Source of the DNA: an uncultured Bacilli bacterium
Lineage (GTDB): Bacteria > Bacillota_I > Bacilli_A > RF39 > UBA660
Length of the DNA: 14,251 nucleotides
Direction of reading: 5' to 3'
Assembly: GCA_947595415.1 (NCBI GenBank)
Contig: CANQER010000015.1
Span: 1 to 14,251, forward strand
The notes beneath the pieces are model-generated. The model did no database searches, was not told the origin of the DNA, and was given only the letters and a program-made list of their open reading frames with translations. Shown piece by piece: positions 5,329 through 14,251 of this stretch. Each line of letters starts with the position of its first letter. Positions within the stretch are counted from its first letter, which is position 1. Made by a program: the position numbers and the translations under genes.

Positions 5329-5615
5329 AAGATCATATTTTATTAAATAACTTATACGATTACTATGGGGAGTTACTTACAGACAAACAACAAAAATACT
5401 TTGTTGATTACTATTTTAACAACTTGTCTTTACTAGAAATGAGTGAAAACTATAATATAAGTAGAAATGCTATTCATAAAGCTTTAAAAGATGGAAAAGA
5501 TAAACTATATTACTATGAAAGTATTCTTAAACTATATGAAAAAAGTATTAAAATTAAAAAAATAATTAGTAATTTAGATAGTGATACAAAAAAAAGAATC
5601 AATGATTTAATTTGA
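5325..5615 (+). CDS. ylxM: YlxM/p13-family helix-turn-helix protein, SRP-associated
   Basis: A 96-residue, mostly helical protein. The N-terminal NNLYDYYGELLTDKQQKYF and the following LSLLEMSENYNISRNAIHKAL are the family pattern: a sigma-70 region-4-like HTH (about 35-55) followed by a charged helical tail. YlxM is generally encoded beside ffh or ftsY and has been linked to the SRP pathway. Here it closes the ftsY operon and ffh is not adjacent. Its last codons and stop lie inside the 25-bp sequence duplicated by the element that follows, so the C-terminus is intact despite the insertion. Confidence 0.9.
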   Translation: MKDHILLNNLYDYYGELLTDKQQKYFVDYYFNNLSLLEMSENYNISRNAIHKALKDGKDKLYYYESILKLYEKSIKIKKIISNLDSDTKKRINDLI

Positions 5616-5619
5616 TTCT
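5595..5619. repeat. 25-bp direct repeat, left copy (candidate target-site duplication)
   Basis: Identical over 25 bases to 7116-7140, with different bases on either side. The unit is a hairpin: AGAATCAA, a 9-base spacer, TTGATTCT. The left copy encodes the last residues and stop of ylxM. Such an exact repeat bracketing inverted repeats is most simply a target duplication. Confidence 0.85.
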
Positions 5620-5679
5620 CAGACTGTTGACAAAGTGATATGTTTAAAATGAACATATCGCTTTTTGTTTGAAAAAAAT
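5612..5679 (+). repeat. Left terminal inverted repeat of the DUF1016 element (68 bp)
   Basis: Matches the reverse complement of 7056-7123 with only two differences (5624 and 5671). The outer 8 bases (TTGATTCT) lie within the duplicated target and match because the target is palindromic, so the element-specific repeat is 5620-5679. It begins TCAGACTGTTGACAAAG when read inward from 5619. Confidence 0.88.
5632..5670 (+). terminator. Intrinsic terminator within the left inverted repeat, stopping ylxM transcription
   Basis: Plus-strand RNA forms a 13-bp stem, AAAGTGATATGTT (5632-5644) with AACATATCGCTTT (5652-5664), containing one G-U wobble, a 7-base loop and then TTGTTT. The reverse strand would have a C-A mismatch and no T-tract, so the signal works only for transcription entering the element. 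Confidence 0.85.
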
Positions 5680-5739
5680 TGAAAAATTTAAAAGTATTGT
5701 ATGGAGTGATGCTTTAAAAAATATAAAAATTAATAATTA

Positions 5740-5770
5740 AAAAGGTTCAATTAATTTTACTGGACCTTTT
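5740..5770 (-). terminator. Terminator of the DUF1016 gene
   Basis: Minus-strand stem AAAAGGTCCA / TGAACCTTTT (10 bp with one mismatch, 5761-5770 with 5740-5749), 11-base loop, followed by a short T-rich run. It begins 12 bases after the stop codon. The remaining 5680-5739 shows nothing recognisable. Confidence 0.6.
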
Positions 5771-5781
5771 ACTTTGGAATT

Positions 5782-6825
5782 TTATTCGTTATTTTCTAAT
5801 ACTTTTTCAACTTCACTAATTAATTGTTCTTTATTTGGAATATAGTAAGTATAAGTAGATGCGAATATATTATTAGATAAACCACCTAAAGCATATTCCA
5901 TAGTTACGCCTTTTTTACCAGTGCAAAGTATGATTCCAATTGTTTCATTATCAAATTCATCTTTAATTTCTTTATTATAGTAATTAACATACATATTCAT
6001 TTGGCCAGCATATTCTGGTTTCATATCATCCATTTTTAAATCTATTAATACATAAGATCTTAAAATTTTATTATAAAAAACCAGATCAACATAATAATGA
6101 GTATTATTATCTAGTGTAATTCTAACTTGATTGCCAACATACATAAAACCTTTTCCTAATTCCATAAGAAATGCAGATAAATGATTTATTAAGTTTTTTT
6201 CTAAATCACTTTCAAGAAGTGGTTTATTTTCTTTTATACCTAAAAATTCAAATACATAAGGTTCTTTTAATATATCAGTTGGATTACTAATAATTTGTCC
6301 TTTTTTTGATAACTCTAATATTTTTTGTTTATTTGCTTTACCATTTGAAAGTAATAATCTTTGAAATAATGATGAATCTATTTGCCTTTTTAATTCTCTT
6401 TTAGACCATTTAGAATTAATACATTCATTTTCATAAAATCTTCTTTCATCATCATCTTCTATATATATTAAATAACAATAGTGACTCCAACTCAATTTAC
6501 TATCTAATAGTTGACTATTTTTATATTTATTATAGAATAACCTCATATTATATAATCCAGATAAACTAAATCCACTTCCAAATTTGTTAGTTAGTTTTTT
6601 AGACAATTTTTTTAAAATATCTTTACCATATTCTGCTCTGATGTTTCCATTTTGTTCATTCTCAACAATAACTTTTCCAATCATAAAGTTAGTTTTTACT
6701 AAAGTATTATTTATTTGATAAATCATTTTATTTTTATTATTTAATATAATGCTTGATATTTCATCATACATATCACTAATTATTCCATCATTATCTTTTG
6801 CTTTTTCCATTACAGCTGTTTCCAT
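5782..6825 (-). CDS. YhcG/DUF1016-family PD-(D/E)XK nuclease
   Basis: A 347-residue protein, the usual length of the family. The N-terminal DUF1016_N region (about 15-155) shows the family's GSGFSLSGLYNMRLFYNKY (83-101) and LSWSHYCYL (111-119). The C-terminal nuclease domain (about 200-345) has YYVDLVFYN with D247, then LIDLK with D262 and K264, and the family motif KPEYAGQMNMYVNYYN with Q275: a D-x(14)-D-x-K core. Many relatives have E where D262 stands. Family members are predicted DNA nucleases, common near restriction-modification and mobile genes; their role is not established. ATG 6823-6825 has a strong AAGGAGG (6834-6840). It is the only gene inside the inverted-repeat element and is oriented leftward. 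Confidence 0.92.
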   Translation of the reverse strand: METAVMEKAKDNDGIISDMYDEISSIILNNKNKMIYQINNTLVKTNFMIGKVIVENEQNGNIRAEYGKDILKKLSKKLTNKFGSGFSLSGLYNMRLFYNKYKNSQLLDSKLSWSHYCYLIYIEDDDERRFYENECINSKWSKRELKRQIDSSLFQRLLLSNGKANKQKILELSKKGQIISNPTDILKEPYVFEFLGIKENKPLLESDLEKNLINHLSAFLMELGKGFMYVGNQVRITLDNNTHYYVDLVFYNKILRSYVLIDLKMDDMKPEYAGQMNMYVNYYNKEIKDEFDNETIGIILCTGKKGVTMEYALGGLSNNIFASTYTYYIPNKEQLISEVEKVLENNE

Positions 6826-6840
6826 CTATTTTTCCTCCTT

Positions 6841-6867
6841 AATTTTCCAACCATTGGCTGGAATTTT
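6841..6867. repeat. Palindrome-bearing repeat, copy next to the ribosome site
   Basis: This 27-base block differs from 6901-6927 at three positions, at an exact 60-bp offset. Its core (6845-6863, TTCCAACCATTGGCTGGAA) is a 19-bp imperfect palindrome, 4 bases from the AAGGAGG of the nuclease gene. It could be an operator or an RNA hairpin controlling translation. Confidence 0.75.
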
Positions 6868-6900
6868 ATTTTTAATAATTATTCAGACGTGTTGAATCTT

Positions 6901-6927
6901 AATTTTCTAACCACTGGTTGGAATTTT
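6901..6927. repeat. Palindrome-bearing repeat, copy next to the putative promoter
   Basis: Second copy; core 6905-6923 (TTCTAACCACTGGTTGGAA) with the perfect inner palindrome AACCA-C-TGGTT. It follows directly after a possible -10 box. The similarity continues weakly into the next ~30 bases (CGTCT and TAATTAT shared on the minus strand), so this is a degenerate 60-bp tandem duplication. Confidence 0.75.
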
Positions 6928-6955
6928 CTATAATTAGCTAGACGAGTTTGACCAA
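6927..6955 (-). promoter_or_regulatory. Possible promoter of the DUF1016 gene
   Basis: Minus-strand TTGGTC (6950-6955), 17-base spacer, TATAGA (6927-6932). Both hexamers are imperfect. Transcription would start inside the upstream palindrome, a layout suited to autorepression. Other A/T-rich -10-like words lie upstream (for example TATAAT at 7022-7027), so the assignment is tentative. The rest of 6956-7055 holds only an 18-codon open frame with no clear ribosome site and is otherwise featureless. Confidence 0.35.
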
Positions 6956-7055
6956 TTTGTTAATTTTCTTATCTAATATAATTTTACCATAAAATTATCG
7001 TTCTAAATCATCATCTTTACTATTATAACTACTAAATTCATTTTTTATCATTTTT

Positions 7056-7123
7056 ATTTTTTTGAAACAAAAAGCGATATGTTCATTTTAAACATATCAC
7101 TTTGTCAACACTCTGAGAATCAA
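7056..7123 (-). repeat. Right terminal inverted repeat of the DUF1016 element (68 bp)
   Basis: Reverse complement of 5612-5679 with two differences; read inward on the minus strand it begins TCAGAGTGTTGACAAAG. Element-specific part 7056-7115. Confidence 0.88.
7065..7103 (-). terminator. Intrinsic terminator within the right inverted repeat, stopping the long minus-strand operon
   Basis: Mirror image of the left terminator: stem 7091-7103 with 7071-7083 and the T-tract read on the minus strand. It faces transcripts arriving from the gene ending at 7128 and keeps them out of the element. Confidence 0.85.
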
Positions 7124-7140
7124 TGATTTAATTTGATTCT
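7116..7140. repeat. 25-bp direct repeat, right copy (candidate target-site duplication)
   Basis: Exact copy of 5595-5619. This copy encodes, on the minus strand, the last three residues (E-S-N) and stop of the membrane-protein gene ending at 7128. In an uninterrupted locus the stop codons of ylxM and this gene would overlap within this one sequence. Confidence 0.85.
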
Positions 7141-8408
7141 ATTTTTATTTTATAATTACTGACATCTTCTACTTTACTAATATCTAAATTAACAATATTT
7201 TCAAGTTCTGAATTACCATTTAAGTTATAACTATAACCATTAGATAATAAAGATTCATTTTTACTATCATACAAAGTTAAATTTAAAACTATGTTTCTTT
7301 TTTCTTGTGAAATATTTTTAATTGTATAGTTAAAAGTTATTATATCACTACCTAAAGATATTTTATCAATACTAATTTTCCAATTATCATAAGCTATATA
7401 ATTAGTATCTTTTATTGATTTTATTTCATCATTACCTTGAACATTATAATTTGAATCAAGACTTTTACCATTACATACATAATCTTTATTTAACAAATAA
7501 TTCATAGCTTTATCGTATTCGTTTAAATTTTCGTAATCTTTACTTTTATCACTTATCTCTACATTAGTTTGTAAAACATAAGTAAGTTGATTATCGTTAA
7601 AATTACTATTTGTACCTGTTATACTTTTATAAGTTAGATAATCAGTATCATTGTTAAACTTTAATCTTTTAGTAGTTGTCCATTTGTTTAATTTATTGTT
7701 AAGATAAACTAACTCAATATTACTTTCTTCACTAGCATCATAAATACTACTGTTTATTTTTTTTACACAGACTAACTGTTTAGTTACATCAACAGTATTA
7801 TTTACACTTTTTTTAGAAAAAACACTAGTTATATTATCTTGGAATAAAACAACTGTTATTATTAAAGCAATCATTCCTACAATAAAAGTTAACATTGTAG
7901 GACTTATTTTTGGTAGTTTAAAAGTTGGTTTCATAGTTGGTTTTATACTACTTACTGGTTTATAAGTATTTTCAGCAAAACTATCATAACTACTTTCAGT
8001 AATTACAGGTTGATCTTCAAAGTTTTTTAAAAAACTAGCTTTTTTAGGATTTTCAAAGATAAATTGTTTGAAAAAATCAGTATAATCTATTACCTTTTTA
8101 CCAGTTTCGTTAGCAGTTATTAATTCCATACTTTTAATATCATCTAAAGGAACTATTTCAACTTTACTTTCCCCTTTTAAAAACTTGTCTAACAATTCAA
8201 AACTTTGATTGTACAAATCTTGACTTTCTATTTTAAATATGATTTTTTTGTTGTCAATAGTTCTTAAGCTACCTAAATAAATTTCTTCTTCACTTAATTT
8301 TTTACTCTCATTGATATAAGCTATAAATTCTTCTTTACCAATTTTAAATATTACAATTACATTAATGCTTTTATCTTTTTCACTAACACTTATAACTTTC
8401 CCTTTCAT
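7128..8408 (-). CDS. Unrecognised single-pass membrane protein with extracytoplasmic C-terminal domain
   Basis: I do not recognise this 426-residue protein. The first ~125 residues form a soluble, beta-rich, charged region beginning MKGKVISVSEKDKSINVIVI, faintly like DUF1292-type small domains. A proline/lysine-rich linker (about 150-168) leads to one membrane helix at about 171-190, followed by ~235 residues rich in N, S, D and Y. The last ~100 residues (from about YIAYDNWKISIDKISLG) alternate hydrophobic strands with a NYTIKNISQEKRNIVLNLTL pattern reminiscent of FxLYD/DUF4352-type immunoglobulin-like domains. Two C-terminal-half cysteines (in LVCVKK and YVCNGK) could form a disulfide. It is last in the recO run, starting 14 bases after the DUF212 gene with AGAGG upstream, and its end lies in the element's target repeat. 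Confidence 0.8.
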   Translation of the reverse strand: MKGKVISVSEKDKSINVIVIFKIGKEEFIAYINESKKLSEEEIYLGSLRTIDNKKIIFKIESQDLYNQSFELLDKFLKGESKVEIVPLDDIKSMELITANETGKKVIDYTDFFKQFIFENPKKASFLKNFEDQPVITESSYDSFAENTYKPVSSIKPTMKPTFKLPKISPTMLTFIVGMIALIITVVLFQDNITSVFSKKSVNNTVDVTKQLVCVKKINSSIYDASEESNIELVYLNNKLNKWTTTKRLKFNNDTDYLTYKSITGTNSNFNDNQLTYVLQTNVEISDKSKDYENLNEYDKAMNYLLNKDYVCNGKSLDSNYNVQGNDEIKSIKDTNYIAYDNWKISIDKISLGSDIITFNYTIKNISQEKRNIVLNLTLYDSKNESLLSNGYSYNLNGNSELENIVNLDISKVEDVSNYKIKIESN

Positions 8409-13986: not shown

Positions 13987-14251
13987 TTATTTTGGAGAAA
14001 GGACTAGGCGAGTAGAACAATCCCAGTGTTCACTGCCATCGTTACTGTTAAATGCGAATACTCCAGCAGTATCACCATGATTATAGGCAGCACCACGATA
14101 GAACCATGGAATCGTATTTGCGATAAAGGAAGCATAATCAATATACCAACTACCAGAAGTGTTAAATGGGCCCATTTCTCCTGTTGCATCTCCTAAGATT
14201 CTTGCACCATAATTATAAGTTGGATATGATGACTGTCTATTATCATAAACA
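13987..14251 (-). CDS. C-terminal 87 residues of a surface- or phage-tail-type protein, cut by window edge
   Basis: The frame is open from the window edge to TAA at 13987-13989. The visible part reads TYNYGARILGDATGEMGPF, then a Trp/Tyr/Gly-rich stretch with SGSWYIDYASFIAN, WFYRGAAYNHGDTAGVFAF, and ends STRLVLSP followed by K. The 'RG--Y--G--AGVFAF---G------R-VLSP' ending is a pattern I associate with secreted or phage-structural proteins of gut Firmicutes/Mollicutes, but I cannot name a family. The DNA is visibly richer in G and C than its neighbours, suggesting different ancestry. The start and domain architecture lie outside the window. Confidence 0.7.
   Translation of the reverse strand, partial: VYDNRQSSYPTYNYGARILGDATGEMGPFNTSGSWYIDYASFIANTIPWFYRGAAYNHGDTAGVFAFNSNDGSEHWDCSTRLVLSPK

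Follow-up and report, generated by a model that had tools for sequence, protein, structure and literature searches.

The locus raises the question of how a predicted nuclease gene came to lie alone between inverted repeats, and of which enzyme carried it there. The window, a stretch of 14,251 nucleotides of DNA from an uncultured member of the Bacilli, contains this arrangement at positions 5595-7140. The anatomy given in the earlier note is confirmed: a lone nuclease gene stands between 68-bp inverted repeats with two mismatches, which are bracketed by a perfect 25-bp direct repeat. The inverted match pairs 5612-5679 with 7056-7123, and its outer 8 bp are part of the direct repeat. The unit proper occupies 5620-7115 (1,496 bp) and has arms of 60 bp containing the two mismatches, with similarity weakly extending to ~75 bp (66 of 75 positions identical, ungapped). 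The sole open reading frame of at least 60 amino acids listed inside the unit is the DUF1016/YhcG gene (5782-6825, minus strand).

The two copies of the direct repeat (5595-5619 and 7116-7140) are identical at 25 of 25 positions. The chance of a 25-bp match at a fixed position is ~2e-13 at the base composition of the window. The repeat is itself palindromic, forming a hairpin of 8 outer pairs. The left copy is the duplicated target, a terminator-like hairpin at the 3' end of ylxM (PF04297) with an 8-bp stem at -6.2 kcal/mol, matched in stability by 5 of 200 shuffled sequences. The ylxM stop codon (TGA, 5613-5615) lies inside this copy, and the right copy contains the stop codon (TAA, 7128-7130) of a convergent gene at 7128-8408. 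Because both stop codons fall within the repeat copies, neither neighbouring reading frame is broken. The convergent gene has no Pfam match and matched only itself among 117 genomes, which therefore offered no empty site to set beside the locus. Near the far end of the window (13987-14189) is a frame that by eye resembles the C-terminal part of a 399-aa reading frame at another locus (L038), sharing the words GSW, RGG and GVF.

The ends of the unit are not peculiar to it. Of 291 family genomes, 81 contain the terminal word CAGAYTGTTGACAAA and 1 contains the reversed control word. A search with the arms among 147 relatives matched 32 genomes, mostly through short AT-rich segments, with strong matches in five (G060, G022, G061, G083 and G043). 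In G043 and G083 the ends adjoin IS1182-type transposase fragments, which fall under the IS1182 family cut-off because they are incomplete or decayed. At least six pairs of ends sharing CAGAYTGTTGACAAA termini were found in sister genomes, each pair on one contig and spaced 1,656-1,681 bp apart. All six of these complete elements encode an IS1182 transposase above the NCBIfam cut-off. Five of the six stand between perfect palindromic direct repeats (28, 25, 26, 22 and 26 bp); in the sixth (L125) the two flanking palindromes differ, and there is no matching direct repeat. Two of the six (L125 and L128) use the first base of the target palindrome to complete the TGA stop codon of their transposase gene. 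A different IS1182-like element occurs in G043 (contig C6, L068 54-1828); its inverted repeat is exact over 47 bp, and its 540-aa reading frame falls below the NCBIfam cut-off.

Complete insertion sequences (ISs) of this group have one 3' and one 5' end, with ~15 bp in common. The left arm of the unit (5620-5694, plus strand) is identical at 67 of 75 positions to the 3' end of a complete IS (L127) and at 71 of 75 to a 3' end on another contig of the host (C91). The right arm (7050-7115, minus strand) matches the C91 end at 64 of 75 positions, compared with 35 of 75 for the 5' end at host contig C34, and the two arms are in general about half identical to 5' ends. These alignments identify the ends of the unit as ends of IS1182-family ISs. 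They also assign both arms to the transposase-distal (3') type, unlike the mixed pair of the complete ISs. A tblastn search of the window with two IS1182 transposases gave no match, and none is encoded inside the unit. Without an IS1182 transposase gene between its ends, the unit is an IS1182 derivative rather than an IS.

Related insertions are present elsewhere in the host genome. The arm sequence is found again at contig edges, on C91 and C107. The 3'-type end at C107 and a 5'-type end at C2 have one target palindrome in common, the C91 and C34 ends have another, and C104 carries a third 5'-type end at a contig edge. Pairing these contig-edge ends by their targets indicates at least three IS-type insertions whose interiors are unassembled. 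The host assembly (935 kb in 119 contigs, 68.4% complete) yielded no IS1182 transposase. The earlier note had looked to further copies of the repeat around DUF1016 genes; such copies do exist in the host and its relatives, but what lies next to them is an IS transposase or an unassembled interior and not another DUF1016 gene. The cassette itself is present once in the host and, among the matches listed, in none of the other family genomes. A search with the whole unit over 386 family genomes, scoring 2 candidates per genome, matched 147 at E 1e-8, and among the matches listed gene and arms occur together only in the host.

The choice of target is shared as well. Among 62 collected ends, which are not independent in that both ends of some insertions are counted, 46 adjoin an anchored palindrome scoring above the 99th percentile of a random-position control. 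Four loci repeating the window, outer flanks shorter than 30 bp and repeated flanks were left out of this test. The other 16 ends miss the threshold and include the left end of the unit (score 4, threshold 5), which falls short because the score charges interior mismatches, though its 8 outer pairs are perfect. The right end (CAGAG) is off the pattern and was left unscored. The last outside base is T at 57 of the 62 ends. In addition, each of the 14 ends of the seven elements, namely the unit and the six ISs, folds within 60 bp into an inward-facing terminator-like hairpin with a T-rich tail (-9.9 to -15.2 kcal/mol), compared with 2.9% of 175 control windows folding at -6 kcal/mol or below, these windows being drawn from the same seven loci and possibly overlapping ends. 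In the unit the hairpins occupy 5632-5664 (plus strand) and 7071-7103 (minus strand), each at -14.8 kcal/mol and followed by a T-rich tail. A second fold of the left hairpin has -15.4 kcal/mol and a z of -5.7. These elements probably part a terminator hairpin from its U-tract, leave that hairpin in two copies and supply replacement terminators of their own, which would make insertion nearly harmless.

The gene carried by the unit encodes a predicted PD-(D/E)XK nuclease of 347 aa with the Pfam domains DUF1016_N (PF17761, E 9.4e-42) and YhcG_C (PF06250, E 1.3e-54). It is followed by a likely intrinsic terminator at 5740-5770 (minus strand), a hairpin at -7.7 kcal/mol and then a T-run, which 5 of 200 shuffles equal in folding. 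In 46 distinct homologous loci the residues D247, D262 and K264 are identical wherever covered (44/44, 43/43 and 43/43, respectively). Most close homologues are found in records whose titles name uncultured Bacilli, Bacillales or Erysipelotrichaceae. The nuclease also matches one PHROG of unknown function, and no match was found among solved structures. Its best PADLOC match is PDC-S02 (3.9e-127), which the available text of PMC13356809 treats as a candidate defence class counted in rumen genomes. By this match the passenger is possibly an anti-phage gene. Like the DUF1016/YhcG proteins of PDC-S02, the nuclease has the two Pfam domains and the residues predicted for catalysis; it differs from them in setting, as none of 55 other loci (46 distinct) lies between IS1182 ends.

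Sequence upstream of the gene indicates where it came from. A Mob/Pre-type relaxase remnant at 6995-7042 (minus strand), immediately inward of the right arm, consists of the last 15 codons and the stop (NEFSSYNSKDDDLER*), and matches the C-terminus of the relaxase at a locus in another genome (L151, G403). Running inwards from 7056, the inner edge of the right arm, the sequence is 87% identical to L151 over 184 bp. In L151 this homology begins within the 3' end of the relaxase gene, downstream of which lies a DUF1016 gene with 62% identity. The L151 relaxase matches PF01076 (Mob_Pre, 3.7e-16), and NCBIfam MobV only below cut-off. At a further locus (L012) a DUF1016 gene 87% identical to that of the unit is likewise found downstream of a relative of the relaxase C-terminus (58% over 182 residues), which is too short to show the Mob_Pre domain. 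The remnant, together with the context at L012 and L151, indicates that capture of the gene brought along a truncated part of its former neighbour. The cargo thus comes from a mobilizable element.

Between the remnant and the gene is a leader (6838-6927, minus strand) with two similar imperfect palindromes, CCAACCANTGGNTGGAA-like, seen as a 30-bp direct repeat (D2) at 90% identity; its fold has a z of -4.1. Comparison of the leaders before DUF1016 genes in L011, L012, L151 and the window shows palindromes of differing sequence, for example TTCAGACGCGTCTGAA-like. It is possible that they are operators or leader hairpins. A leader like window 6877-7049 also stands before another gene family (L152, L154, L157 and L158), which by eye looks KilA-N-like. 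At three more loci (L153, L155 and L156) the relaxase tail precedes other genes. The position behind the relaxase gene looks like a shared cargo slot. A recombinase suspected by eye upstream of the L151 relaxase matched nothing in Pfam.

The reading that best accounts for the locus, and one that we hold with considerable confidence, is that an IS1182-family IS gave rise to the unit as a non-autonomous derivative resembling a mobile insertion cassette, which was moved in trans with the nuclease as its passenger. The last codons of the relaxase gene, the leader, the DUF1016 gene and its terminator would have become enclosed by two inverted IS 3' ends. The IS1182 transposase of a full copy in the same cell would then have moved the cassette in trans. 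Insertion into the hairpin of the terminator that separates ylxM from the convergent gene would have duplicated the whole 25-bp hairpin, leaving each neighbour with its stop codon and a copy of the hairpin, and the inward-facing terminators of the arms probably replace the separated U-tracts. Since the direct repeat lies outside both arms, it was presumably the finished unit that moved to the ylxM terminator. The order in which the cassette formed is what we infer from its present structure. Counting against this reading are the lack of an IS1182 transposase in the incomplete host assembly, the pairing of two 3'-type arms, which makes mobility today uncertain, the lack of a second copy of the cassette among the matches listed, the unmatched repeats of L125 and the 16 ends that fall short of the palindrome threshold.

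The closest competing account, though an unlikely one, is that the unit represents the remains of a composite element, in which two inverted IS1182 copies moved the gene and then lost everything except their 3' ends. Two arms of 3' type are what the outward-facing ends of two inverted ISs would provide, and a precedent for islands bordered by IS1272 is found in TnSha2, as described in the consulted portion of PMC4923244. However, the tblastn search with two IS1182 transposases revealed no transposase remnant between arm and cargo, and the leader homology starts right at the inner edge of the arm. This account differs from the trans-mobilized cassette only in how the cassette arose.

A more active part for the nuclease is harder to sustain. 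It could act on hairpin or cruciform DNA and so aid the IS1182 transposase at terminator hairpins, or it could protect the cassette, but we consider either very doubtful. If true, the unit would be a two-enzyme, structure-directed mobile unit spreading a defence-candidate gene by insertion into terminators.

Less probable still is a new class of element in which the DUF1016 nuclease serves as the mobility enzyme or acts in a homing-like way. It is the only gene between the inverted ends, is intact, and has conserved PD-(D/E)XK residues. The earlier note had suggested that such a protein, as the only one of an inverted-repeat element, would be a new kind of mobile system, and had named mobility enzyme, homing-like accessory and cargo moved in trans as possible roles. 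The last of these gains support from the present data and the first does not. The same ends are used by ordinary ISs with a DDE transposase of the IS1182 family in six of six cases, and the same kind of palindromic target duplication in five of six, in each instance without DUF1016; on this basis the nuclease was rejected as the mobility enzyme, use of the ends by an ordinary IS being what the earlier note itself had named as telling against its proposal. A nuclease-driven or homing-like element would also carry the gene with these ends to other sites, and no such case was found: IS1182 ends are present at 0 of the 55 DUF1016 loci (46 distinct) retrieved from elsewhere than the window. The gene, moreover, was cut from a relaxase-linked context. 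Weak pairs of flanking inverted repeats occur at 12 of the 55 loci at E <= 0.01 (best 2.8e-5, compared with 1.7e-33 in the window), in a test where one flank is at most 65 bp in L025, L165, L171 and L189 and from which L188, a duplicate of L151, was left out; we take these for chance matches in AT-rich DNA. Among plasmid records, 472 contain a DUF1016 relative and 1,855 a relative of the L127 transposase, all below 60% identity, and no closer relative of the cassette was found there.

It is equally improbable that the short-read assembly wrongly placed an unrelated DUF1016 contig between two IS ends: IS ends do break the host assembly elsewhere, but here the 25-bp repeat is perfect on both sides, both arms carry the variant GTGATATG, which is absent from the other 3' ends of the host, and gene, leader and terminator are continuous.

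As a transposase-less IS1182 cassette, the unit can be compared with known systems. Full members of the IS1182 family, including IS1272, have similar termini, a DDE transposase, and hairpins or terminators as targets; the unit differs in lacking the transposase and in having two 3'-type ends. According to the portions of PMC4923244 and PMC5678879 consulted, IS1272 targets stem-loops and deletes them, making no duplication. The model published for it includes, in the same portions (PMC5678879, PMC4923244), an outcome in which the stem-loop is duplicated, and this fits the repeats seen here. ISPse1, also of the IS1182 family, is listed with a 4-bp repeat in the consulted part of PMC3281130. TnSha1 (IS1272 + sh-fabI) likewise combines a passenger gene with IS1182-family ends and terminator hairpins as targets, but, as described in the same part of PMC4923244, its IS is still complete, transposase included, and the target hairpin is deleted.

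The nearest parallel is with mobile insertion cassettes (MICs), described in the portion of PMC3913671 consulted as cassettes without a transposase, one of which, MIC231, is mobilized in trans by the IS from which it derives. In MIC231 and the qnrD mic, as far as these sources describe them, a passenger gene replaces the transposase between IS-type inverted repeats, and the target is duplicated. The unit has these structural features of a MIC, and its mobilization in trans would follow the same scheme. It is unlike them in that its parent family is IS1182, not IS231, that the repeat is a whole terminator palindrome, and that both ends come from the same IS end. A limited literature search found no paper pairing the IS1182 family with a passenger gene and three that mention IS1182 together with non-autonomous elements, and by that search alone a transposase-less IS1182 cassette is apparently unreported.

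The IS1182 relatives in these Bacilli duplicate terminator hairpins, in contrast to the deletion produced by IS1272. An inward terminator-like hairpin is present at each end of all seven elements, which suggests why terminators are safe landing sites. The cassette, in turn, shows a route by which a defence candidate made up of a single gene may leave a mobilizable element and enter a cassette with IS ends.
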